A model generated the notes under the pieces. The model had not been told where the DNA came from. It ran no database searches and saw only the letters and a list, made by a program, of their open reading frames with translations. Made by a program: the position numbers and the translations under genes. Shown here in pieces: positions 23,647 to 36,789 of a stretch of DNA of 64,000 bases. Positions within the stretch are counted from its first letter, which is position 1, and every line of letters starts with the position of its first letter. This stretch comes from Mariniblastus sp. (GTDB lineage Bacteria; Planctomycetota; Planctomycetia; Pirellulales; Pirellulaceae): positions 124,001 to 188,000 of the forward strand of contig JAQXDZ010000119.1 of NCBI GenBank assembly GCA_029251085.1, in the 5' to 3' direction.

Positions 23647-24762
23647 ATGTCAAGAATTCCGGCAGCACCAAGGTTTTTAAAATCGGTACTTATGCTCGCA
23701 ACGGTCGGCTTAATAGTACCCGCTACCCAAGCGCAAACGTCCAATCGCATGCTCCAGCCGATTCAACCGCGAGCAGGATTCAACACAGTACCCTTCCGGG
23801 CTGCACAACCAACACGCTCGACCTCGGCAGCCATTCGCAAGGCCCCGGTTCCGGCAATCTCCGCGGCCTACCCATCGACGATATCAACCCAACAACGAGG
23901 GAATGCCACTTCGACCGGCACCCAAACTTCGAATTTGCAAGACAATCTTGAACTGAAAAATTGCACGATTAGCTTTATCGATGACATCATGCTGCCTGCC
24001 AAAGAAAGCGGAGTTATTTTGTCGCTCAGTGTAAAAGAGGGAGACACAATCAAGGCAGGCACTGTCGTCGGAAAAATTGACGATGACCTTTTTCAACAAC
24101 TTCTCCAGCAGGCAAAATTGAGGTATGAACTGGCTGCTGATGCTGCAGAGGATTCTCTGGCGATTGAGGCAGCTGAAAAGAAATACAAAGTCGCAGCGAT
24201 TGAAGCCCGCAAGACTTCTGGCTTAGCCGACAAAGGATCCAAGTCTGAATCCGACAGACTGATGGCGAATTACACGATGGAAATTGCCGCGCTCGAACGC
24301 GACAAAGCCATCCGCGAGCAACAAAAGGCTGGGCTGGAAAAAAAACTCGAAGAATCAAGATTCCTCGAAGCCAAAAAGCACGTGGAGGGCCACATCCTGC
24401 AATCCGAGTTTGATGCCTCCGTTATTAAGATTATGAAAAAGCCTCAGGAGTACGTCCAGAAAGGGGAAGCGGTAATGCGAATCGCCCGCATGGACCGACT
24501 CTGGGTGCAGGGCGCCATCGAAATCACCGACCTCAATCCAGAAGAGGTTCGCGGGAAACGCGTAACGGTTACCGTTCAACGTGCTCGTGACGAAACTGCC
24601 ACATTCGATGGCGTTATCACTAACGTGGGCCTCGAGCGTCAAGGGCTGACACGTTACATGGTGAAAGCAGAAGTCCAAAATCGCCCAATCGACGGACACT
24701 GGGAATTGCAACCGCTGAGCGGAGCTATCATGCGAATTCATCTCGACAAAGCTGGAAAATAA
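23647..24762 (+). CDS. Secreted periplasmic adaptor (HlyD/RND membrane-fusion family)
   Basis: The product is 371 residues with a signal peptide (LMLATVGLIVPATQAQ). A Ser/Thr/Pro-rich linker runs to about residue 95. The lipoyl half-motif is MLPAKESGVILSLSVKEGDTIKAGTVVGKI. A long helical hairpin of alternating Lys/Glu/Ala occupies about 150-240. The closing beta-barrel segments are AVMRIARMDRLWVQGAIEI and YMVKAEVQNRPIDGHWELQPLSGAIMRIHL. This is the layout of membrane-fusion proteins that bridge inner- and outer-membrane transport parts. No cognate inner-membrane pump or TolC is present nearby. It shares the adaptor theme with the gene at 20696. Confidence 0.85.
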   Translation: MSRIPAAPRFLKSVLMLATVGLIVPATQAQTSNRMLQPIQPRAGFNTVPFRAAQPTRSTSAAIRKAPVPAISAAYPSTISTQQRGNATSTGTQTSNLQDNLELKNCTISFIDDIMLPAKESGVILSLSVKEGDTIKAGTVVGKIDDDLFQQLLQQAKLRYELAADAAEDSLAIEAAEKKYKVAAIEARKTSGLADKGSKSESDRLMANYTMEIAALERDKAIREQQKAGLEKKLEESRFLEAKKHVEGHILQSEFDASVIKIMKKPQEYVQKGEAVMRIARMDRLWVQGAIEITDLNPEEVRGKRVTVTVQRARDETATFDGVITNVGLERQGLTRYMVKAEVQNRPIDGHWELQPLSGAIMRIHLDKAGK

Positions 24763-24801
24763 ACCAACTCGCAGAAGCTGGAATTATTGACGGTCGATTC
24801 C

Positions 24802-25845
24802 CTACTTCGAAGTAATCCACAAAAAGGGTTTGGCATTTTCGTCCATTCGTAGTTCGCACGAAAGGCGAGGCTTGGATTGCTTCAATGCGTTCGAGACTGC
24901 GACCAAGAGTGCAACCTTTTTCTCAACGAGTGTCACTTTCGTAGTTGCCAGATCAACGTCTTTTCTGGCCAGCGTGTTGTAGTCAATTAAAAAATTGACT
25001 CCTGATTTCTTCTCAATCGCGTTAAGAACAGCCGAAAGCGGGAAATTACGAATCTCAAGCGGTATCTTGTCAAATAAAGTCGGTGCCACTGCCACAGGCA
25101 CTCGCTCTAACGGCCAACCAACTGGCCAGTTTTCCTTTCCTTGACGCGAATCTTTTAATTGGATCTCCAACTGCTTACCTTGCTCCCGCCTTGGCTCGAT
25201 CACCAAACCAAGCGGGCGTACGACTGCCGCCAATGCCGTTCCAAGTGAAAGCCCTTTTAGCTCGTCGCGAACTAACTCGTTTCCATTCACCGCCGCTCTT
25301 GCCGAAGCATCCAACACGAACGGAATCCCAATTTTCTTAACCAGTTCAGCCGTTACGTCTCCTGCTTTTTGCCCCTTGGTATCAAAATCTACTGTTTGCG
25401 AGAGTCGCCCGTGCAACGCCACCAACTGCTCTGAAGTTAAACCAAACGCTTTCTTTTCGGCCATGGCGACTCGCGCCCCGTCGTCCCGAAGCCGCTTCAA
25501 CAGTTCTCGGATCCCAGATTTGTCTCGAATCGAAAAACTTCCCCCCGGTAATTTTAACCGGTCACCGGCAATCACTCCCGTGACCTTTACGACCGTCGCG
25601 GAGGTCATGTCCGTTTCCTCAATCCCAACCCGTCCGTCTTTCAAGGTTCTCGAAACAACCCGATCTGCCCCAACTCCCTGAAGCATCTCTAACCATTGCT
25701 GTTGTGCCCCCACCCGAGCCCGTGCATCCGCTGAAATTTCCAAATAGATAATACGCCGGGGGTTTGATTGAGCTTGAGACTCCGCGGCCAAAATTGACAT
25801 CAAGCTAATCAGCAGAATTCCAACGAATTGAGATCGTCTAGGCAC
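24802..25845 (-). CDS. Secreted protein with secretin-N (STN)-like segments
   Basis: The product is 347 residues from the GTG at 25845, chosen because GGAGAG lies 8 nt upstream. That start yields a proper signal peptide (SQFVGILLISLMSILAAESQAQS), whereas the longer frame does not. Two segments look like STN/secretin-N short domains. One is near 230-255 (LSLGTALAAVVRPLGLVIEP). The other is near 290-320 (EIRNFPLSAVLNAIEKKSGVNFLIDY), the pattern of a small alpha/beta domain in TonB receptors and secretins. No barrel or pore domain follows. The middle contains an unassigned region ending in AFGLTSEQLVALHGRL. A periplasmic binding or assembly role is inferred. Confidence 0.7.
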   Translation of the reverse strand: MPRRSQFVGILLISLMSILAAESQAQSNPRRIIYLEISADARARVGAQQQWLEMLQGVGADRVVSRTLKDGRVGIEETDMTSATVVKVTGVIAGDRLKLPGGSFSIRDKSGIRELLKRLRDDGARVAMAEKKAFGLTSEQLVALHGRLSQTVDFDTKGQKAGDVTAELVKKIGIPFVLDASARAAVNGNELVRDELKGLSLGTALAAVVRPLGLVIEPRREQGKQLEIQLKDSRQGKENWPVGWPLERVPVAVAPTLFDKIPLEIRNFPLSAVLNAIEKKSGVNFLIDYNTLARKDVDLATTKVTLVEKKVALLVAVSNALKQSKPRLSCELRMDENAKPFLWITSK

Positions 25846-26019
25846 GATTAATTCTCTCCACAGTAAAGTGACAATCAAAGCAGGAAAGGATATTCCAAAC
25901 AGCAACTTTAAGAAATAGAAACTCCAGTGGGATGGAGTAGTTGCCAGCAAGTAAACATTGCCGCCGACGTAATGAAATTATTACCGCAGGCGAAACAATG
26001 GCAAGCGATGAAGTCTGAC

Positions 26020-26940
26020 TCAATCAGAAACGCCGTAACGACCAATGCAGTAAATAGCGTTAATCAAATCCTTCACCCCAATCTTCTTACCCTCGTCGTA
26101 GCCTCGACTGTCATAAGAAATCGGAACCTCAGTAAATCGATAGCCGCGTCTCGCCAGCTTTGCTGTAATCTCTGGCTCAATTCCAAATCGATCTTGCTCG
26201 ATACGAATCGCCTGGATCACCTCGCGATTGAACGCTTTATAGCAAGTCTCCATATCAGTCAGCTTCAATCCGCTAAAAAGATTGGAAGCACCAGTTAGGA
26301 TGGCATTGCCCGTTCGATGAACCCAGGACTCATCCTGCTGTTCGTCGCCAATAAACCGAGAACCATAAACGACGTCGGCTTCTTTCCGTAATAGAGGCTG
26401 GATCAGCCGGGGAATGTCGCGTGGATCATATTCGAGGTCGGCATCCTGGACGACCACTAAATCGCCTTTGACATGCATAAACCCCGTACGCAACGCGGCA
26501 CCTTTTCCCTGATTCTCATCTTGCAAAATGATATTAACATTCGGCATGCCGATTAGTTTCTGAAGAACCTCTCGTGTGCCGTCGGTGCTAAAGTCATCAA
26601 TGATGACCAATTCCAAATTTAACGGCAACGCAGCAACACGACTTAATATCCTGCCAATGGTGTTAATTTCATTGAAAACTGGAATCACCACCGAGAGCAA
26701 ATAATCGGTGCGCGGGCTTGCATTCTCACCGGGGTCTGCGGCCTGATAGGAATCCAACTCTTCTTTGACCAGTTTCGCGCATCCGTCTATCCGACTCAGC
26801 ACCTGATCGAGATACTCAGATTTGGCATTCCCGACACTCGAGCGACCAGAGGCAAACTCCGATTTACGAATCGATTGGGTGGACGTAAAAGTCCCAGAAT
26901 ATGAAGATGACGACGTCGAATTTGAATTGGCTTGATTCAC
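26020..26940 (-). CDS. Glycosyltransferase family 2 (dolichyl-phosphate mannosyltransferase-like)
   Basis: The product is 306 residues from the GTG at 26940, chosen for GAGG five bases upstream; a TTG at 26991 is the alternative. The GT-A core has VVIPVFNE, VIIDDFSTDGTREVL, ENQGKGAALRTGF and VVQDADLEYDP (the DxD metal site). It also has VVYGSRF and the C-terminal FGIEPEITAKLARRGYRFTEVPISYDSRGYDEGKKI. These match the DPM1/polyprenyl-phosphate glycosyltransferase branch, which loads a sugar onto a lipid carrier for envelope glycan synthesis. The Ser-rich N-terminus (about 80 residues) has no membrane segment. It stands alone, with no glycan cluster around it. Confidence 0.9.
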   Translation of the reverse strand: MNQANSNSTSSSSYSGTFTSTQSIRKSEFASGRSSVGNAKSEYLDQVLSRIDGCAKLVKEELDSYQAADPGENASPRTDYLLSVVIPVFNEINTIGRILSRVAALPLNLELVIIDDFSTDGTREVLQKLIGMPNVNIILQDENQGKGAALRTGFMHVKGDLVVVQDADLEYDPRDIPRLIQPLLRKEADVVYGSRFIGDEQQDESWVHRTGNAILTGASNLFSGLKLTDMETCYKAFNREVIQAIRIEQDRFGIEPEITAKLARRGYRFTEVPISYDSRGYDEGKKIGVKDLINAIYCIGRYGVSD

Positions 26941-27185
26941 GGTTGCCTCGTTACATAATTCAAAACTTCTCTTAAGAAAGATTCGGCTCAATCACCCTGA
27001 ATCCTGATCAAGAAATCATTCTTGCCAATTATTCACCCGAACAGGGTAGATGATTGACTTCCGCTCAGTTCAATTCACCCTGCCCCGTCACTTCCTGTGA
27101 CAAAGATTCCAATTACAACGATTACAGAGATTCAATCAAGGGATTTATTCGAAGGGCCGGCCTCCCTGCGGCTTGGCCCAGCCAT

Positions 27186-27215
27186 AAAAAAACCCGCCGC
27201 AAATTTGCGACGGGT
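27186..27215 (-). terminator. Intrinsic terminator of nrdB
   Basis: The minus strand reads ACCCGTCGCAAA directly followed by TTTGCGGCGGGT, which folds with one G-T wobble, and then seven T. It lies 54 bp past the nrdB stop. Confidence 0.9.
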
Positions 27216-27268
27216 CTTACAATTAAAATCGAATCAGGTTGAATACCGGAGGCAACAACCATGTTTGG

Positions 27269-28321
27269 TTAGTCCCAATCCAGTTTTCCACCGGTTTGGT
27301 ATTCGGTCACGCGTGTCTCAAAGAAGTTCTTCTCTTTTGCCAAATCCATTGTCTCGCTCATCCACGGGAATGGGTTCGCACTGTTGTACTGCACTGGCAA
27401 TCCGATTCTTTCCAGACGTCGATCGGCGACGTGCTGAACGTAATCACGGAACAAATCTGCATTCAATCCAAGAACACCGTTAGGCAAGCAATCCTCTGCG
27501 TAAGCCAACTCAAGTTCTACTGCTTCGCGAATACGACTGGTCATCTGCTCTTGGAATTCTGGTGTCCACAATTCAGGATTCTCAGCCTTGATGCCGTTGA
27601 TCAGGTCGATTCCAAAATTCAGATGGATCGATTCATCACGCAGGATGTACTGGAACTGCTCTCCGATTCCCTTCATCAGGTTCCTACGATGGAACGAAAG
27701 AACCATCACAAATCCTGTGTAGAAGAAGATGCCTTCCATGATGATATAGAATCCGATCAGATTTTTCAAAAGTGCCTGAGCACCTTCAAATGTCTCTGTC
27801 GTAAAGTCAGGATCAAGCACTTCCTTCGTCAGTTCCATTTCGAACGCGTCTTTACGAGCGATCGCAGGAACTTCGTTGTACATATTGAAGACTTCGCCCT
27901 CGTCCAATCCCAGACTTTCGACTACGTACAAGAACGTGTGCGAGTGAACCGCCTCTTCGAATGCTTGACGCAACAAGTACTGCCGGCACTCCGCATTGGT
28001 CACGTGCTTGAAAACAGCGAGAACCAAGTTGTTTCCAACCAAGCTTTCTGCCGTCGAAAAGAATCCAAGGTTTCTCATGATCACTCGCCGCTCATCGTCG
28101 GTAAGTTGATCCGATTTCCAAATCTCGATGTCCTTGTTCATCGCAACTTCGGTCGGCATCCAGTGATTTGCACAACCATTGTCGTAATGTTCCCAAGCCC
28201 ATTTGTACTTCAATGGCATCAGTTGATTAACATCAACCTGGTGGCAGTTGATCAAACGCTTTTCACTGGCGTCGACTCGCTTTGACTTGCCCGATTTTAC
28301 TTCTGAGATATCCGTTGCCAT
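27269..28321 (-). CDS. nrdB: Ribonucleotide reductase R2 subunit, class Ic (Phe at radical site)
   Basis: This 350-residue R2 protein makes and stores the oxidant used by NrdA to reduce ribonucleotides. The metal ligands appear as Glu92, Glu123, His126, Glu196, Glu230 and His233. The radical tyrosine position is Phe130 (EEAVHSHTF). From memory, Chlamydia trachomatis R2 has E89, E120, H123, F127, E193, E227 and H230. Every position here is offset by exactly three, including Tyr132 and Tyr225 for Y129 and Y222. The Glu first ligand plus Phe are the class Ic marks, which predict a Mn/Fe cofactor rather than a tyrosyl radical. The C-terminal tail [12 protein letters not shown] fits docking to R1. 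The start has GGAGT upstream. nrdB has its own terminator, and nrdA ends with another before it. Confidence 0.95.
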
Positions 28322-28532
28322 CGTTTGCTACTCCATGCAAAAACGTTTAATTATGTAAAATTCAATTCGGTTTTTTTGGCGGGATTTGGAGGCTCCGTCC
28401 ATCCTGAGGATTAACCGCAATCCCGAAAATCCAACAACACAAATCAAGACTTAAACCGAAAAATCTTGTCGACAAATCATAACGCTTTGCCGAGCTGAAT
28501 ATTTGATTGACTACAGCACACAACACCCAGTC

Positions 28533-28564
28533 AAAAACTGGCCATTGGCAAATCCCAATGGCCA
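28533..28564 (-). terminator. Intrinsic terminator of nrdA
   Basis: The minus strand reads TGGCCATTGG, a 6-nt loop, CCAATGGCCA, then GTTTTT. The 10-bp stem is perfect. It lies about 22 bp after the nrdA stop, so nrdB probably needs its own promoter between 28322 and 28530 or depends on readthrough. No second NrdR-like box is visible there. Confidence 0.85.
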
Positions 28565-28585
28565 ATTTTCAACGCTATCTTTTCA

Positions 28586-31396
28586 CTACTGACAGGCTTC
28601 ACAATCTGGATCGTCAATACTGCACTGCTGTACTTCTGGCTGCCGCTCAACGGCGATATCAGCAGAAGCACTTGCATTTTTCATCCACCTCGGTTGAACA
28701 CCAAACTTATTGATATCAACCGTCGATTTTTCTACCTGAGTCGCACCAAGTGATCGCAAGTAGTAGGTTGTTTTCAACCCAGCCTGCCAAGCCATTCGGT
28801 ACATCTCATCCAAACGGCGACCGCTTGGTTGTCCAAGATAAAGATTCAGAGACTGCCCCATGTCAATCCACTTTTGACGCCGACTGGCACACCGAATAAT
28901 CCAACTTGGATCGATCTCGAACGCCGTAGCAAATCGCCCTTTGATGTCTTCAGGTAAATCAGGAATTTCACCCAACGCACCGTCAAAGTATTTGATCTTC
29001 TCCAACATGTCGCCATCCCAAAGCCCACGCTCTTTCAATTCGTTAACCAATTTCACATTGATCTGAACGAATTCACCAGAGAGATTGCTCTTCACGAACA
29101 AGTGCTTGTAGGTCGGTTCAATCGATTGAGTAACACCAACAATCGTGGAAATTGTGGCGGTTGGAGCAATCGCCATTACGTTACTGTTTCGAATCCCGTT
29201 CTTGGAGACAAGTTCACGGACTTTGTCCCAGTCCATGGAAGTGCTCTTATCCATGTCGATCGGCATGCCTCGCTCTTCTTCGAGGATCGCCACCGTGTCG
29301 ATCGGCAATAAACCGCGATCCCACTTGGAACCTTCGTAAGAAGAATAAGTCCCTCGTTCACCAGCTAAATTACTCGAGGCAGAGATCGCAAAGTACGAAA
29401 TGGCTTCCATACTTTTATCGGCAAAGTCGACCGCTTCTTCACTTGCGTAACTAATTCCGCAAGCAGAGAGAGCATCCTGGAAACCCATCAAACCCAAACC
29501 TACCGGACGGTGCCGTTGGTTCGCATTTTTGGCTTCATCGGTTGGATAAAAATTAATGTCAATGACGTTGTCAAGCATTCGAACGGCGGTGTTCACCGTG
29601 GCTTCGAGCTTTTCAAGATCCAGTTTTCCGTCGGTAACATGGTTAAGCATGTTAATCGAACCAAGATTACAAACCGCGGTTTCATCCGCAGAAGTATTCA
29701 ACAAGATCTCAGTGCAGAGGTTACTACTATGCACAACGCCAGAATGGTCTTGAGGAGAACGAATGTTCGAAGGATCCTTGAATGTGATCCAAGGGTGTCC
29801 GGTCTCAAATACCCGCGTCAGCATCTTTCGCCACAAATCAACCGCTGGAACTTTCCGAGTCAGCTTGATTTTACCTTCGGCCGCCAGCTCCTCGTACTGC
29901 TCATACCGTTCTTCAAAGGCTTTCCCGTAAAGATCGTGAAGATCAGGTGTTTCATCCGGGCTGAACAAAGTCCAGTCCTTTTTTTCCGTGACCCGTTTCA
30001 TGAACAAATCGGGAATCCAGTTCGCGGTATGCATGTCGTGAGTTCGTCGACGTTCGTCTCCCGTGTTTTTCCGGAGGTCAAGAAACTCTTCGACATCAAG
30101 GTGCCACGATTCAAGGTAAGAACAAACAGCACCTTTTCGCTTTCCACCCTGATTCACCGCCACAGCAGTGTCACTCACAACCTTCAGGAATGGAATCACA
30201 CCCTGACTCTGGCCGTTTGTGCCCTTAATGTGGGAGTTGGTCGCCCGAATGTTCGTCCAGTCATTCCCAAGACCACCAGCCCACTTCGACAGTTTCGCAT
30301 TGTCACCAATTGCTTTGAAAATACTGTCCAAGTCATCCGTTACCGTGCTTAAGTAACAAGAGCTCAGTTGCGGGTGCAAGGTTCCCGAGTTGAACAACGT
30401 CGGAGTCGCTGAAGTAAACCGAAACGTCGATAGAATGTTATAAAACTCGATCGCTCGTTCGGTTTTGTTTTCTTCCTGAATCGACAAACCCATCGCAACA
30501 CGCATCCAGAAAAACTGCGGTGCTTCAAAGCGACGCCCGTCAATGTGCAACAAGTACCGGTCGTAAATCGTCTGCAGACCCAAATACGGGAACAACGCAT
30601 CCCGCTCTGAATCAATCGCATCCGCCAATTTTGCCAGATCAAATGTTGCAAGTTCCGGTGAAATTCGCAGGGCATCAATCCCTGTTTGAATGAACTCCGC
30701 GAACTTTTCTTTATACAAAACCTTCAAATCACCACTAGCCGCAGATTTTCCCAACGACTCGCGATAAATGATATTCAGGACCAAACGACCGGCAACTGTG
30801 TCGTACTCAGGATCTTTCTCAATCCGCGAACGAGCCGCCAACACCATCGAGCGGCCGATTTCACGAGGAGTAATTCCGTTGAAAAATTGCTTCTCAACCT
30901 CTTCCAAGAGTTCACCCGAAGAGCAAGTTTCGTCTAGACCGTCACACGCACTGTCGACCTGACTTCGCAATCGTTCAAAATCGAGGTTCTCAAGCTGACC
31001 GTCTCGATTCACCATCGTACCTGGGAATGGATCAGCGCTGTCCATTCGCTCTTCCGCACGCAGCTGGCGGATCTTGTTATGCTCGGCTCGATAGAGGATG
31101 TATCGGCGGGCCACCGAAAAATACTCCTGCTTCATCAACTGACGCTCGACAACGTCTTGAATGTGCTCCACTGTGACACCCGCGTCGGTCAACGCGTCTT
31201 CCTGAACTTCTGCAACAACCGATTCGGTAATCGCATCAGCAACTTCCAATTGCTTCGCATCAAGCTGGCTGATCTCTGAAAATTTGTGCTCTGCACAAAA
31301 CGCTTTTTGAATCGCCCTAGTAATCAGTGCCGGTTCAAATGTCAGTACTCGCCCGTCTCGCTTCCTGACGTTCATCTCCTGAGTCGTCTTCAACAT
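28586..31396 (-). CDS. nrdA: Ribonucleotide reductase R1 (alpha) subunit
   Basis: This 936-residue catalytic subunit reduces ribonucleoside diphosphates. Residues 8-100 form one ATP-cone ([20 protein letters not shown] ... [10 protein letters not shown]), the allosteric activity domain. The barrel contains the conserved PQLSSCYL cysteine, the NLCTEI cluster with the thiyl Cys, and AVCNLGS for the partner redox Cys. The C-terminal swinging arm [12 protein letters not shown] supplies the external thiol pair. Length is greater than E. coli NrdA (761) but less than chlamydial NrdA. It pairs with the class Ic R2 downstream. Transcription probably starts near 31877, from the promoter with NrdR-like boxes. 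Confidence 0.97.
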
Positions 31397-31877
31397 TCCA
31401 TCGTACTCCCGTTAGCTATTTGTCCATGACTTGCCGAGCATTTCCCAAGCTCGAACTGTCTCTATTTGCCAAACCAATGCCGGAAGAAAATCCCAAGATA
31501 TCTCCCCACGAATTAATTCAGAACAATCCAATTGATCCGAAACCCGCAACACTGGTTACTCACGGAGTAACATCGTTTAAACGAATGACACGTTTGGTCA
31601 TCCCACAGAAATCAATCCATCAATTTCAAAAAGCGTTTAGAGTCTCCGTCCCCAACTAGTTTTTGCCTCCCCCACCATCCAAAAGGCAGAAGATTTTCCT
31701 CGTGGTATATGATTTCGCGAAGATCTTTTTCGTCTTCCCGATACAAACTCCATTAAAACGCCACAGCAGCACTGAGCCCACAAGACTCTGTTTCGCTTTT
31801 GACTCCCCAAAACACTCAAATCATTGATTTTTTTGGCCATTTTGGGAGCCAATTCAAAAACTGGCTTTAAGTGGCGG
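31397..31877 (-). other. Long 5' leader of nrdA
   Basis: If the promoter at 31884-31911 is right, nrdA mRNA has an untranslated leader of about 480 nt. It contains a perfect 7-bp hairpin (GTTACTC, 3-nt loop, GAGTAAC, 31555-31571) and a short AGCCA/TGGCT stem near its 5' end. I do not recognise a cobalamin or other known riboswitch. Frames within it (plus strand 31420-31659, minus strand 31637-31885) lack ribosome-binding sites and do not look coding. Confidence 0.4.
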
Positions 31878-31879
31878 GA

Positions 31880-31926
31880 ACCCAATATATCGACGTTTGA
31901 GATTCTGTCAACACAAAATGTTGTGC
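31880..31926 (-). promoter_or_regulatory. nrdA promoter overlapped by two NrdR-like boxes
   Basis: On the minus strand TTGACA (31906-31911) is followed after 16 nt by TATATT (31884-31889), close to a consensus housekeeping promoter. Two 16-bp sites resembling the NrdR box acaCwAtATaTwGtgt lie on it. One is 31911-31926 (ACACAAAATGTTGTGC, 13 of 16), overlapping the -35. The other is 31880-31895 (ACCCAATATATCGACG, 11 of 16 with a near-perfect core), covering the -10. They start 31 nt apart, the three-turn spacing typical of NrdR box pairs. Repression of nrdA by NrdR with ATP/dATP is therefore inferred. No nrdR gene is in the window. Confidence 0.8.
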
Positions 31927-32057
31927 TTTATTGTGCTTGCAGTTGTATCGATCAGGACGAGATTAGACTTCACAAAATTCTAAATCATTAGATAAGATTT
32001 TCGTTTAACACCGCTTTTTCCAAGGTCCTTGACAGTCGATGAAAACGCTATATCTGG

Positions 32058-32101
32058 TGCCAGCTTTTAATTGCTAGCAATCAAAAACTGGCAGTTTTTT
32101 T
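32058..32101 (+). terminator. Strong intrinsic terminator on the plus strand with no gene before it
   Basis: TGCCAG ... CTGGCA closes a long hairpin (32058-32093). It has further pairing inside (TTTT/AAAA and ATTGC/GCAAT), two mismatches and a 2-nt tip, and is followed by GTTTTTTT. No plus-strand gene lies upstream, as the flank is the nrdA promoter region. It may end a short RNA started around 31960-32010, or act as an attenuator before the gene at 32330. A weak TTCACA/TAAGAT promoter-like pair (18-nt spacing) lies just upstream. Confidence 0.65.
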
Positions 32102-32329
32102 AACCGCCCAACCACTCAAGAATTCGTCCCGAATGGAATTCCACCGATCGAAACAAGACGCTAGTCTTTTTGCTGCAGCACATGCCAACAAAATGATCCA
32201 AAAAGAATTTTCGCAAAGTTAAAAATCAGCCCGGTTCCGCCCCGAAAACTTGCAAACCTGCGACCAATCTTGCAAGATTTAATTCCGTTTGACGTTCGTG
32301 GAACGCTCCAAAAAACGATACCAATTTTA

Positions 32330-33115
32330 ATGCCCAGTAACTCCATTCAACGAAACCTTTCATCGATTGTGCGGAACCGCCAATTTTCACCGGACGCTCG
32401 CGCCAGCGCAGCTGAGGCGGTTTACCAATACATGCGCACCAATGCCCGCAGCATTGACCGAGGTAATTTCAGCAATTTGTGTAGTTCAGATCTCGGCCTC
32501 CTCTTTCAAATCAATGATGAATATTTCTTTGAGGGCGAAGTCGCCAAACTTTGCGAACGCACCGCCTACCGCCCTCTTTCGTTTCGACTCTCCACCCGCA
32601 TGACCTCTGCCGGTGGAATGACGACAATGCAAACGACAAAAATTAAGCGAAAACCGCAAATCGATTTTGAAATCGCGATCGCAACCACTCCTCTTTTCGC
32701 TTCTTTTCGCGACGAGGAAAATGCAATTGTTAGCGGGATTAAGTGCAAAGATCGCCTGGAAGCGCTGCAAAGAATCATGGAACACGAAATGGTCCACTTG
32801 ATTGAAATGCTCTTATGGACCAACTCAAATTGCTCAGCTAACCCATTTAAAAATATCGTACGTCGATTCTTTGGACACACCGAGTCCAAGCACCAATTAC
32901 TTACCCCGAGAGACCTAGCGAAAAAGAAACTGGGGATCTCCCCGGGTGATCAGGTTCAGTTTCATGCTGACGGACTGATCATGCAGGGGCACGTCAATCG
33001 AATCACCAAGCGGGCGACAGTGCTCGTCCCTCATGCCCGCGGACAACGGTATGACGACGGTAGGAAATACAAGAAATACTATGTCCCGCTAAATCGACTA
33101 AAACGGGCCTCTTAA
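32330..33115 (+). CDS. SprT-like zinc metalloprotein
   Basis: The product is 261 residues from the ATG at 32330; a TTG 20 codons earlier is also in frame. Residues 20-90 are helical and resemble a SprT-like N-terminus. The zinc motif HEMVH lies at 152-156 in QRIMEHEMVHLIEMLLW, with more His (GHTESKH) about 30 residues later as a possible third ligand. The C-terminal part (after 195) has a small beta domain (ISPGDQVQFHADGLIMQGHVNRITKRATVLV) of SH3/KOW type. SprT-like proteins are zinc proteins, some acting on DNA-protein crosslinks. Function here is inferred only from the motif. A possible attenuator-like terminator lies 230 bp upstream. Confidence 0.72.
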   Translation: MPSNSIQRNLSSIVRNRQFSPDARASAAEAVYQYMRTNARSIDRGNFSNLCSSDLGLLFQINDEYFFEGEVAKLCERTAYRPLSFRLSTRMTSAGGMTTMQTTKIKRKPQIDFEIAIATTPLFASFRDEENAIVSGIKCKDRLEALQRIMEHEMVHLIEMLLWTNSNCSANPFKNIVRRFFGHTESKHQLLTPRDLAKKKLGISPGDQVQFHADGLIMQGHVNRITKRATVLVPHARGQRYDDGRKYKKYYVPLNRLKRAS

Positions 33116-33159
33116 ACCAAATTGGTCACGCCCCACCTAGCCAACGGCTTAACGGCACG

Positions 33160-33187
33160 AAAAAAGCCGGGCGAATTGTCGCCCGGC
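33160..33187 (-). terminator. Intrinsic terminator of the CnaB-like protein gene
   Basis: The minus strand reads GCCGGGCGA, a 4-nt loop, TCGCCCGGC, then TTTTTT. The 9-bp GC-rich stem lies 34 bp past the stop at 33221. Confidence 0.92.
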
Positions 33188-33220
33188 TTATCAATTGAAA
33201 GGTTCTAACTCTTACAGTGC

Positions 33221-34393
33221 TTAAGGAGTAACTGGAGAAACGGGTGTTGCTCCACCGTCGTCCGCTAGAGCGATAATGCCGACGGTTAAACCGCCAATTG
33301 CGACCATTCGACCAAGTCCGCCACCACCTCCAAGGCCTCCACCGCCTCCAACAAATGATCCTGAGGGTACACCAGTGGATCCAAATGCACCGCCCATCGT
33401 CACAGATTCAGCAGGGAAAGTAGCGGATTCAGTGGAGAAAATGATACCTCTGTCATCTTCTTCTTGATTGAATTCCATTTCAACAACCTCGTCTTGCACG
33501 AGGTCTTGCAGTGGAACTGCGGTAGTCAACAGCGAGGTTGCGTATGACGGAGCGACCATACCACTCGTCGAAACAAAAGTCACTGAGCCATTTCTACTCG
33601 GCTCTTCCGTGTCCATGACTTCGAAACCAATTGCCGCGACGCAATCCTCGCCACTGGCAACCAGCTCAAAAACACCGGGAGTCAAATCAGGAATTAAATA
33701 ATCTCCCGAAGCATCAGTGGTAACACTAGCGACGGGCTTACCATTTTGAAAAATGTTAACCCTTAGACCAGGCAAAAGACTTTGCTCGGAAGCCAGTATT
33801 TTGCCAGAGAGAGAACCGTCCATCAAAGCTACCCTATTAGCACCGTTCGCAACGACTTCGCCCAAACCAGTTTCGACCAAATCACTTGCCTTATGCTCGA
33901 GCGACCCAAAGATCTTGGCAAGCGATTCATTTCGAGAAATTGCCGCAAGTTCAACAACCTTTGAGTGGACACTTGCAGCATCCGCGACAACGTTGATCCG
34001 ATAGGCCGCAAACGAGTTCTCACCCGATGCTATCAACGAGTAAACACCTTCTGGCACGTTATTGACACTAAAAACGCCGTCAGAATTGGTTTTACCCTGG
34101 CGAATTGTCTTTCCATTTTTCACAAACCGAACAACAAGATCCGAAAGCCCGCGATCAGACTGATTGGAAGCGAACGAAACAATACGCCCGTCGACGCCTC
34201 CAATTCGGTTTAGTGCAACGGTGTGGCAACGCTCAACACCGATGTTCGCCAACTTGGAAACCACGGGAGTGACTTCCAGACTGATTGGCGTTGCGTTCGC
34301 GATGCGTTGGTGTGCCGAGGCAGCCGCTGTGACTGCCAAAGGAAGGGCGACCAATGCAAAACCGTACTTAGTGAAATTCCAAAAATTGCTCAT
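33221..34393 (-). CDS. Secreted protein with two CnaB/carboxypeptidase-regulatory-like repeats
   Basis: The product is 390 residues with a signal peptide (YGFALVALPLAVTAAASAHQ). Two beta-sandwich-like repeats follow, near residues 65-135 and 190-260. Both show the pattern of a variable start, NGKxxxxxxTxxxGxFxxxxxxxGxxxLxASGE (for example NSDGVFSVNNVPEGVYSLIASGE and DASGDYLIPDLTPGVFELVASGE). The C-terminus is a Gly-rich stretch followed by a short hydrophobic segment (MVAIGGLTVGIIALADDGG), typical of planctomycete surface proteins of unknown role. It is single, with its own terminator. Such domains usually serve adhesion or polysaccharide binding. Confidence 0.75.
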   Translation of the reverse strand: MSNFWNFTKYGFALVALPLAVTAAASAHQRIANATPISLEVTPVVSKLANIGVERCHTVALNRIGGVDGRIVSFASNQSDRGLSDLVVRFVKNGKTIRQGKTNSDGVFSVNNVPEGVYSLIASGENSFAAYRINVVADAASVHSKVVELAAISRNESLAKIFGSLEHKASDLVETGLGEVVANGANRVALMDGSLSGKILASEQSLLPGLRVNIFQNGKPVASVTTDASGDYLIPDLTPGVFELVASGEDCVAAIGFEVMDTEEPSRNGSVTFVSTSGMVAPSYATSLLTTAVPLQDLVQDEVVEMEFNQEEDDRGIIFSTESATFPAESVTMGGAFGSTGVPSGSFVGGGGGLGGGGGLGRMVAIGGLTVGIIALADDGGATPVSPVTP

Positions 34394-34606
34394 GTTTTTA
34401 CCGTTCTTAAGCTGCTCATTCAGTGGTGTTTTGTTGCGTTTCTACAACACAACGCGCGGTATCTGCCCAAATCCAGACATAATAACCGATACAATCTGAC
34501 TTAAGAATAGTTAGAGTCGAACTTGTAGTCAAGGAGTTTTTCACTTGAAAATGAAAAACCTAGGCAAGCTACAGGGGAACGAAAACTGACTAATTACTCA
34601 GCAAAA

Positions 34607-35476
34607 TCAATGCTGCCGCTTGGAGATAACCCCTACTTCGGGGGAACTGGCAGACGCATACCGAGACATTGGAATGCGGCCGCTTTGATAGGCCAGTCGT
34701 CCCGCTTTCACGCCATGCTTCATTGCCTCTGCCATTCGAATTGGATCCTCCGCCCTTGCCACTGCGGTATTGAGTAGCACTGCATCAAACCCCAATTCCA
34801 TCGCGACAGCAACATCGCTCGCCGTCCCCACTCCCGCGTCAATAATGACTGGGTAGTCTGGATCCCCATGTTTGAGATCCTCAAGGATGATCTGAAGACT
34901 GTTTCTGTTAATCACGCCCAATCCGGAACCAATTGGGCTTCCCGCTGGCATTACACTAGTCGCACCAGCATCTTTGAGTCGGCGAGCGACAATTGGATCA
35001 TCACTTGAATAACAAAGCACCTGAAAGCCTTCTTTCACCAAAACCTCCGTCGCCTTAAGCAACTCGATTGGGTCTGGCAGAAGCGACCGACTGTCACCGA
35101 GTACTTCTAGTTTTACCCAATCAGCACCAGGATTTTCCAACCCTCGAAGTATCTCACGGCCCATTTTGGCACATCGCACCGCAGTTTCTGCGTCGTAGCA
35201 ACCGGCAGTATTGGGCAAGAGAACCAAACGCGAGGGGTCGACAAAATCTAAGATATTTCTTCCAGAACTGTCATGCAGTTTCTCGCGACGAACCGCAATG
35301 GTAACACATTGGGTCTCAGCAACCTCAAACGACTCTCGCATTACCTCAAACGAGTCGTACTTCCCGGAACCTAAAATCAATCGGCTCTGAAACGTATGTC
35401 CAGCAATGCAAAATTGATCGAGATCACCCGAAACTTCTTCGGCCCGGTTCGGCTTTTCCGAAATGGAATCACTCAC
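34607..35476 (-). CDS. thiG: Thiazole synthase ThiG
   Basis: ThiG condenses deoxyxylulose phosphate, dehydroglycine or glycine-derived imine and ThiS thiocarboxylate into the thiamine thiazole. The product is 289 residues from the GTG at 35476. GGAGGTG lies six bases before it, inside the last codons of thiS. The core has [39 protein letters not shown] (active-site Lys), [15 protein letters not shown] and the phosphate loop [13 protein letters not shown]. The first 25 residues are an acidic extension. It is translationally coupled to thiS, with one base between stop and start. Other thiamine genes are not in the window. Confidence 0.95.
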
Positions 35477-35477
35477 G

Positions 35478-35681
35478 TTAGCCACCTCCCACCAAGGTAA
35501 CAATTTCTAAAATATCCCCGTCGTTCACCTCAACTTGGCAATGCGTATCGCGGGGCTGAATTTGCTGGTTAATCTCAACGGCAATCGCCCGCGAGTTCAT
35601 CCCGAGTGAATCGAGCAACTCCGCAATCGTCAGCCCCTCGCCGCAGGACTGTTTTTTACCATTGATTGTCACATCTATCAC
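35478..35681 (-). CDS. thiS: Sulfur carrier protein ThiS
   Basis: ThiS is a small ubiquitin-like protein whose C-terminal Gly is thiocarboxylated and donates sulfur to ThiG. I take the GTG at 35681 as start, which gives 67 residues, the normal length; the frame is open 16 codons upstream with no better site. The sequence [20 protein letters not shown] and the C-terminus [11 protein letters not shown] match the family, ending in the required Gly-Gly. It is immediately upstream of thiG. Confidence 0.9.
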
Positions 35682-35835
35682 GTTGCAAGGTATCCAATTT
35701 TTGAATGAGAAGGGAAAACCTTTCGCCAATTCCCCCAGCGTTAAATCGATTCGTCCCTCCGGATCACCTACTTAGAGGAAAACCGTTTAAATCCGTGCGA
35801 AACACCCGTTTGGAACTTCTAATTCGCACTTCAAC

Positions 35836-36789
35836 TCAGAAGCTTTCAGCCATATCTCGAGCGTGGTAACTGCTTCGGACAAAGGGACCACTGGCAACCT
35901 TTTTGAACCCCATGCTCTTTGCTTTCTCACCCAACATCGCGAATTCTTCCGGCGGAATGTAACGAACCACAGGTAAATACCGATCCAGTGAAGGCTGAAG
36001 GTATTGCCCTAAGGTTAGAAAATCACAGCCAATATCAAGTAAATCTGAAAGGACTTCATAAACCTCTTCGTGGGTTTCTCCGAGCCCCAGCATCAAGCCA
36101 CTCTTGGTTTTGATCCCAGGATCCACTTCCTTTACCCGCTCAAGCAAACCAAGCGTCCAGCGATAATCTGATTTGGGACCTCGAACGCGTCGGTACAAGC
36201 GGGGAACTGTTTCGGCATTGTGATTGAAGACCTCCGGAGCCGATTCAATCACACGATCCAAAGCTGGCTTATTATGCACGAAATCCGGCGTCAAAACTTC
36301 GACGGTCGCTCCAGTTTTTTCTCTCACGGCAACAACACATTGATAGAAATGATCCGCACCGCCATCGGGCAGGTCATCGCGAGTAACCGATGTGATCACG
36401 ACGTGCTTTAAGCCAAGCCGATGCGCGGCTTCCGCTACGCGTTCAGGCTCATCCAGCTCTAAAGCCCCCGGCCGACCACGTTCTACGGCACAAAAGCCGC
36501 AGGGTCGCGTGCAAGTTTTTCCGAGAATCATAAACGTCGCAGTTTGCTGAGAATAACACTCCATTCGATTAGGACACTTCGCGTTATCACAGACCGTTTC
36601 AAGGTTGAGCTCATCGAGCAGCTTGGCGGTCGCCCCGACATTGTTACCCTTGGGAATCTGGCGCTTTAACCATTTAGGCAACCGCGCGGATGGCTGAGAC
36701 GAACTTCCCCCCATTGAACCGCACGAGCCACCACCGCAAGATCCACCCTCGGTCGAATTGCCGCCGTTAATTACGGGTAAACCGCTCAT
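35836..36789 (-). CDS. lipA: Lipoyl synthase
   Basis: LipA is a radical-SAM enzyme that inserts two sulfurs into protein-bound octanoate. The product is 317 residues with two iron-sulfur clusters. The auxiliary cluster is bound by Cys67, Cys72 and Cys78 (CDNAKCPNRMEC), the SAM cluster by Cys93, Cys97 and Cys100 (CTRPCGFC). The C-terminal RSSYHA motif is present. The first 32 residues are an unusual Gly/Ser tail with two cysteines (GGSCGGGSCGSMGGSSS). No lipB is adjacent; thiS-thiG lies downstream on the same strand after about 150 bp. Confidence 0.96.
   Translation of the reverse strand: MSGLPVINGGNSTEGGSCGGGSCGSMGGSSSQPSARLPKWLKRQIPKGNNVGATAKLLDELNLETVCDNAKCPNRMECYSQQTATFMILGKTCTRPCGFCAVERGRPGALELDEPERVAEAAHRLGLKHVVITSVTRDDLPDGGADHFYQCVVAVREKTGATVEVLTPDFVHNKPALDRVIESAPEVFNHNAETVPRLYRRVRGPKSDYRWTLGLLERVKEVDPGIKTKSGLMLGLGETHEEVYEVLSDLLDIGCDFLTLGQYLQPSLDRYLPVVRYIPPEEFAMLGEKAKSMGFKKVASGPFVRSSYHARDMAESF

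Follow-up and report, generated by a model that had tools for sequence, protein, structure and literature searches.

A class Ic ribonucleotide reductase predicted in a planctomycete, Mariniblastus sp., probably as its only reductase

We analysed a 64,000-nucleotide stretch of the Mariniblastus sp. contig JAQXDZ010000119.1 (hereafter the window) and conclude with high confidence that its minus strand encodes a class Ic ribonucleotide reductase (RNR). The radical-generating subunit (R2, NrdB) is encoded at 27269–28321 and its catalytic partner (R1, NrdA) at 28586–31396, with a Mn/Fe centre predicted to replace the tyrosyl radical, putative control by NrdR and a probable role as the sole reductase of the organism (Table 1). 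The R2 gene had been proposed in a first-pass annotation that gave no strand; an open reading frame (ORF) on the minus strand has exactly those borders and begins with an ATG preceded by GGAG. Chance or a frame error is ruled out, as the ORF and its residues recur in close relatives.

The translation of nrdB holds W54, E92, E123, H126, F130, Y132, E196, Y225, D229, E230, H233 and Y341. Six of these (E92, E123, H126, E196, E230 and H233) reproduce the class Ic ligand set of Glu, Glu, His, Glu, Glu and His, and the redox-inert F130 replaces the radical Tyr. phmmer aligns residues 7–349 with residues 4–346 of the Chlamydia trachomatis R2 (1syy) without gaps (591 bits, 71% identity), so that every position is offset by three and F130 is the equivalent of F127; the chlamydial numbering is confirmed by the title of PDB entry 2ani (‘F127Y mutant’). 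The residue assignments of the first-pass annotation are borne out by this alignment: Glu92 as first metal ligand and Phe130 at the radical position can be read directly from the translation, Glu123, His126, Glu196, Glu230 and His233 lie exactly three positions beyond their chlamydial counterparts, and Tyr132 and Tyr225 correspond to Y129 and Y222. W54, D229 and Y341 are conserved as well. Two more C. trachomatis sequences scored 590.9 and 589.7 bits and 6y2n, the R2c of Saccharopolyspora erythraea, 502.7 bits, with all other matches at 139 bits or less; on these scores the match to C. trachomatis R2 is far beyond chance. Glu at the first ligand and Phe at the radical site (Glu+Phe) are found in 15 of 15 planctomycete NrdB proteins of at least 75% identity (L013, L015–L023, L036–L040), and their recurrence here and family-wide makes a sequencing slip at E92 or F130 unlikely.

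In the published scheme the combination of radical site and first ligand is Phe/Glu in class Ic, Tyr/Asp in classes Ia and Ib, and Tyr/Glu in class Id (PMC8463856). NrdB scores 306.6 bits against Pfam Ribonuc_red_sm and 625 bits against NCBIfam NF005550 (cut-off 309), and passes the general R2 model NF007186 more weakly (272.6 bits, cut-off 237). The class Ia model NF006576 reaches 86.5 bits (cut-off 346), the Asp and Tyr of that class being absent, and the class Ib NrdF model TIGR04171 reaches 78 bits (cut-off 355). Five R2lox models give 44–60 bits (best 60.2, cut-off 194) against cut-offs of 194–346, one reason why we regard as close to negligible the chance that NrdB is an R2lox-like Mn/Fe oxidase with a Tyr–Val ether cross-link and not a reductase subunit. 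V95 does stand at the place of the cross-link Val, but Phe191 occupies the place where the cross-linked Tyr would be expected; moreover, Y341 and the C-terminal NFFETRV tail are conserved and nrdA adjoins. A Glu first ligand without a radical Tyr is also found in R2lox, and the Glu is common to class Ic, R2lox and di-iron monooxygenases (PMC4118035).

An AlphaFold model of NrdB, built from 24 window and locus sequences, has a mean predicted local distance difference test score (pLDDT) of 78.6, with values below 50 at residues 1–13, 22–32, 53–55, 92–94 and 326–350. A Foldseek search of the PDB with this model ranks 13 C. trachomatis NrdB chains first and 6y2n 14th, followed by others from E = 6 × 10−10. 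Structures of class Id appear only at ranks 28 (5olk) and 35 (8dq3), and class Ie R2 proteins lack metal ligands, whereas NrdB has all six. It is therefore highly improbable that NrdB belongs to class Id (Mn2 with superoxide) or class Ie (a metal-free DOPA radical), the two class I subclasses that, like our protein, do without an ordinary Tyr radical; class Id, furthermore, pairs Tyr with the Glu first ligand, where NrdB has Phe (PMC8463856).

The phylogenetic data set comprised 192 NrdB rows: the window sequence, 29 relatives sampled across Planctomycetota (43 matches yielded 30 loci, the window among them), the best 80 of 579 loci from named genomes, the best 80 of 200 from viral contigs, and two PDB sequences. 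Three wrongly extracted rows (L118, L154 and L192) were dropped, leaving 189. A first, outgroup-rooted tree used 73 rows thinned by identity, the viral rows at 75%. A second tree of 63 rows, with the trait columns left out and a midpoint root, omitted L024, the viral L129, L131, L135 and L188 (three of these five had been flagged as long branches in the first tree) and the seven remote outgroup rows with Asp+Tyr; hand thinning removed four further Asp+Tyr rows, and six rows with Glu+Phe were brought in. In this 63-row tree the window NrdB groups with L036 and L037, metagenome-assembled genomes (MAGs) of Planctomycetaceae/Pirellulaceae (91% and 89% identical). The next clade (support 99/94) has 13 rows, 12 from planctomycetes and one from the viral contig L116, and lies within a clade of 31 rows (100/100) that contains C. 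trachomatis and other Chlamydiae, Verrucomicrobia, Chloroflexota, Thermomicrobiales and Rubrobacter, as well as single MAGs labelled Latescibacteria, Clostridiales and Proteobacteria. Thirty of the 31 rows are Glu+Phe and one is Glu+Leu. The outgroup-rooted tree also recovers the chlamydial group with NrdB, consistent with shared descent with the Chlamydia R2c. The class Ic call of the first-pass annotation thus stands on alignment, tree and the failure of the class Ia, Ib and R2lox models: NrdB falls in the chlamydial class Ic clade and not with class Ia. A class Ic RNR has been inferred for the last common chlamydial ancestor (PMC9816063). L116, a 52-kb contig among the viral sequences, encodes a class Ic NrdAB resembling that of planctomycetes (NrdB 80% identical); it is either phage DNA with a copy of these genes or a host contig placed in the wrong collection.

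First ligand and radical site covary in all 189 usable homologues. Asp92 occurs with Tyr130 in 75 of 75 rows and Glu92 with Phe, Val, Leu or Ile in 114 of 114; these rows are not independent, 57 of the 114 being Glu+Val viral contigs of which one was kept after thinning at 75% identity. The pairing of Glu92 with Phe130, as in R2c, makes it quite improbable that NrdB is class Ia-like, with an Fe/Fe centre, a radical located elsewhere (such as on Tyr132 or Tyr192) and Phe130 as a mere shift of site. Such a protein would fit the conservation of Tyr132 and the occurrence of Asp+Tyr within the same family, in seven Planctomycetota NrdB of the NF005550 type (L006–L012, 61–65% identical) and in 45 of the 80 named-genome loci (best 80 of 579), including Pseudomonas and Acinetobacter (59–65% identical); planctomycetal NrdAB has also been called di-iron/tyrosyl (PMC12639061). 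Planctomycetota therefore hold both states, in separate groups, and because the wider family includes Tyr-bearing NrdB, ‘class Ic’ and the NF005550 family are not equivalent. Nor is the pairing universal in class I R2, since class Id combines Tyr with Glu (PMC8463856).

Residues other than Phe also accompany the Glu ligand. Among the best 80 of 200 viral matches, 57 contigs encode an R2 with Glu and Val, and L188 has Ile (in all, L131–L134, L136–L143, L145–L153, L155–L164, L166–L171, L173–L185, L187–L191 and L193–L195); judged by these residues, they are phage-type R2 proteins without the radical Tyr. Glu+Leu occurs in Planctomycetota (L024–L026 and L253, 41–43% identity) and in Thermomicrobiales (L042, 74% identity). 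Leu, Ile and Val have been documented at the radical site of R2c (PMC3824934).

The partner gene nrdA is complete and lies upstream of nrdB on the same strand. NrdA carries C347, C561 in the motif NLCTE, C576, the paired Y878/Y879 and the C-terminal C925, C932 and C935, the roles of which we assign by analogy with E. coli R1. It passes NF005544 (1432 bits, cut-off 965) and just misses the 1046-aa model NF009029 (1324 of 1350 bits). The genome assembly (G000; 5.49 Mb, 171 contigs, 92.67% complete) contains one R2 and one R1-type barrel, and within this draft we found no other class I or class II reductase and no NrdD. A third ATP-cone, on another contig, is that of NrdR (TIGR00244, 194.6 bits, cut-off 124.65). 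From its gene content, class Ic NrdAB is probably the only reductase of this planctomycete.

To place these residues in the phylum, we read R2 loci in three genome samples. An R2 match of any kind was found in 43 of 294 genomes phylum-wide; of the 30 that were read (13 were unread), 11 are Glu+Phe, the window included. The window's own family was sampled with 60 genomes, 23 with an R2 match: 20 have a full-length NrdB of the window type (19 loci and the window), every one Glu+Phe, and in the other three the match is fragmentary or falls below the cut-off. G295, among the 20, encodes in addition a distant class Ia pair with Asp+Tyr (L218, L222), which the count excludes. Of 101 genomes sampled from a second family in this class, 32 have an R2, and 30 loci were read (two genomes with the R2 in pieces were left out), giving 29 Glu+Phe and one Glu+Leu, the latter 41% identical. 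Two own-family and five second-family genomes overlap with the phylum-wide sample. Together, the two families count 49 Glu+Phe and one Glu+Leu, with a radical Tyr in 0 of 50. The first-pass description of this chemistry as rare is thus apt for the phylum (Glu+Phe in 11 of 294 genomes, from reading 30 of the 43 matches) and wrong among close kin (49 of 50); on these counts, class Ic is uncommon in Planctomycetota and yet the usual class I enzyme of these two families.

Class Ic also appears, from barrel searches, to be often the only class I or II reductase in the two families. Among genomes with a near-complete R1 barrel of the window type (at least 600 bits; split genes excluded, and NrdD searched in the window's genome only), a hand count gave no second class I or II barrel in 10 of 19 own-family and 23 of 29 second-family genomes. 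The common other barrel, at about 440–475 bits, is the B12-dependent NrdJ in both of the two cases examined, each in a genome without R2 (NF005122), and NrdJ would seem to be the reductase of most own-family genomes. Of the second barrels examined in class Ic genomes, that of G312 is of class II type and that of G295 of class Ia. Besides their main R1-type barrel, G181, G313 and G314 have a short one (608–615 aa) for which the match is split into two parts.

On the trees, rows with Glu fall into two groups: the chlamydial clade, and a set of Alphaproteobacteria and Actinomycetota that includes 6y2n (10 rows in the 63-row tree) and is nested inside gammaproteobacterial Asp+Tyr rows. Glu appears as a single split in 0 of 200 bootstrap trees of the 63-row NrdB alignment. 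Two changes are also required on a tree of NrdA, a protein that lacks the trait itself (66 near-complete sequences of 71 loci with a long enough frame, thinned to 53 rows including the window), and on a joint NrdA/NrdB tree (47 rows, six more having been removed by hand). Approximately unbiased (AU) tests do not reject a single Glu split (P = 0.294 for NrdB, 0.0635 for NrdA and 0.319 for the joint data). We therefore keep two origins of Glu+Phe within the NrdB family as the likely reading of the trees and have dropped it as a firm claim. R2 proteins with Tyr changed to Phe were described in halophilic archaea by Lundin et al. (2010), with transfer inferred (PMC3019208), and a later paper reports R2c as polyphyletic in that study (PMC3824934). 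We lean, without strong conviction, towards a joint reading in which the class Ic signature (Asp to Glu with Tyr to Phe) would have been acquired at least twice in a single NrdB family: one acquisition on the branch leading to Chlamydiae, Planctomycetota and Chloroflexota, the other within the gammaproteobacterial Asp+Tyr clade, on the branch towards bacteria like Bradyrhizobium and Saccharopolyspora. Ligand and radical residue would change as an obligate pair, and Mn/Fe would be the rule for NrdAB of the window's class, at odds with what is in print. One row, L098, is a MAG contig labelled Klebsiella pneumoniae with an NrdA that groups with Thioalkalivibrio, and the label looks wrong.

Upstream of nrdA, the region contains five promoter-like sites, compared with 5.2 in shuffles; the best, at 31884–31911, would place a leader of about 0.48 kb ahead of nrdA. 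A pair of NrdR-like boxes spans it (31880–31926). Scored against the NrdR-box consensus, this pair reaches 24, the best of the 64 kb; simulation gave at most 23 (once) with 60 sequences of 64 kb and at most 22 with 2000 sequences of 800 bp. The genome encodes NrdR and has two NrdR-like boxes at the promoter-like site, with a spacer of 15 bp, within the usual 15–16 bp (PMC12051234), and the pair is a putative NrdR site at which nrdAB would be repressed. Among relatives with usable upstream DNA, the promoter and box stretch is kept in L036 and L037, with flanks less so, and is not recognisable in L040. The hairpin between nrdA and nrdB might tune nrdB expression; L036 has a different one (z −3.24) and none is significant in four of the six tested, so we make no claim for it. 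Rfam has no match over 24000–36000.

Table 1 Features of the nrdAB region, in window coordinates
Feature	Coordinates	Strand	Basis
nrdB, R2 radical-generating subunit, 350 aa, class Ic residues	27269..28321	minus	ORF, family models, alignment
Glu92 codon, first metal ligand (Asp in class Ia/Ib)	28046..28048	minus	by hand from ORF start
Phe130 codon, place of the radical Tyr (F127 of C. trachomatis)	27932..27934	minus	by hand from ORF start
nrdA, catalytic subunit R1, 936 aa, two ATP-cones, all-alpha and barrel domains	28586..31396	minus	domain searches, motifs
Promoter-like TTGACA-16-TATATT, 11/12, about 0.5 kb upstream of nrdA start	31884..31911	minus	consensus scan
NrdR-like box 1, abuts −35 TTGACA, 13/16 against consensus	31911..31926	minus	box scan
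NrdR-like box 2, over −10 TATATT, 15 bp from box 1	31880..31895	minus	box scan
Strong hairpin after nrdA and before nrdB, z −5.07	28534..28569	minus	fold
Hairpin and T run after nrdB, read as terminator	27186..27215	minus	sequence and stem fold; not listed by consensus scan

By analogy with the chlamydial enzyme, we infer a radical-free Mn(IV)/Fe(III) cofactor for NrdB. Most likely, Mn would occupy site 1 and Fe site 2 as Mn(II)/Fe(II), reaction with O2 would give a Mn(IV)/Fe(IV) state, and one-electron reduction via Tyr225/Trp54, the path of the Chlamydia enzyme, would yield Mn(IV)/Fe(III). The metal centre, in place of a tyrosyl radical, would then oxidise the active-site C561 of NrdA via Tyr341 of NrdB and Y878/Y879 of NrdA. 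ATP and dATP at the N-terminal cones would switch NrdA, NrdR at the paired boxes over the promoter would repress transcription, and the class Ic enzyme would stand in for NrdJ, which depends on B12. The sequences themselves show the residues, the family and tree position of NrdB, its partner gene, the NrdR gene with the box pair, and the lack of other reductases in the draft assembly; the metals and their oxidation states, the missing radical, the route of the electron and the binding of NrdR are predictions. For C. trachomatis R2c, these Mn/Fe states have been described, together with activation by H2O2 and reduction and inactivation by hydroxyurea (PMC8463856); nitric oxide, to which, as to oxidants, the first-pass annotation had predicted resistance, is not mentioned in the searched text of PMC8463856 or PMC4009431.

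We acknowledge several points that weigh against the assignment. The first-ligand residue alone does not set the metal (PMC4118035), and we found no metal analysis or electron paramagnetic resonance (EPR) data for NrdB or a planctomycete relative. Confidence in the AlphaFold model is low towards both termini and at residues 92–94, and its root-mean-square deviation from the first 14 matches is 10–16 Å; the model thus supports the family and adds little on metal-site detail. The draft state of the assembly (171 contigs, 92.67%) leaves room for a missed nrdJ, and NrdR-like box 2 matches the consensus at only 11 of 16 positions.

The class Ic type of RNR is already known, and NrdB adds a planctomycete member. 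The best-studied class Ic enzyme is that of a pathogen. In the present case, class Ic looks like the sole reductase of planctomycetes that are apparently free-living, and for this group the reductase present has been linked to growth with or without vitamin B12 (PMC12639061, PMC10509075). The relatives of 59–65% identity with Asp+Tyr offer natural pairs for asking why ligand and radical residue change together and what sets the metal. The interest of the system lies in this paired change, in the probable role as sole reductase and in a cofactor that has probably been misassigned in print for the group. For Stratiformator (Pan189), C. hydatis, A. californiensis and A. chondri, NrdAB is reported to replace NrdJ, and growth without added B12 is described (PMC10509075); a 2025 paper describes the NrdAB of Lacunimicrobium and Rubinisphaera as using a di-iron–tyrosyl cofactor (PMC12639061). 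These Planctomycetaceae enzymes resemble ours in being B12-independent NrdAB. The cofactor assignment, however, disagrees with the Glu ligand and missing Tyr in all 30 loci read in the second family; on residue evidence, the published di-iron/tyrosyl assignment for planctomycetal NrdAB is probably wrong. Among the titles and opening lines of abstracts that represented part of the matching literature, none called a planctomycetal NrdAB class Ic, although such a report may be in print.

Among known systems, the closest is C. trachomatis R2c (1syy, 4d8f, 4m1i), to which NrdB is 71% identical over a gap-free alignment; every ligand is shared, and F127, Y129, Y222 and Y338 have their counterparts in NrdB. 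Unlike that system, ours comes from an environmental planctomycete and has a NrdA of 936 aa with two ATP-cones. The R2 of 6y2n (62% identity) also shares Glu+Phe and all ligands, but falls in the other clade, with Alphaproteobacteria and Actinomycetota and next to gammaproteobacterial NrdB with Asp+Tyr. The NF005550-type NrdB proteins of other Planctomycetota are recognised by the same model as ours, but have Asp and Tyr at the diagnostic places, as do, unlike NrdB, those of Pseudomonas and Acinetobacter.
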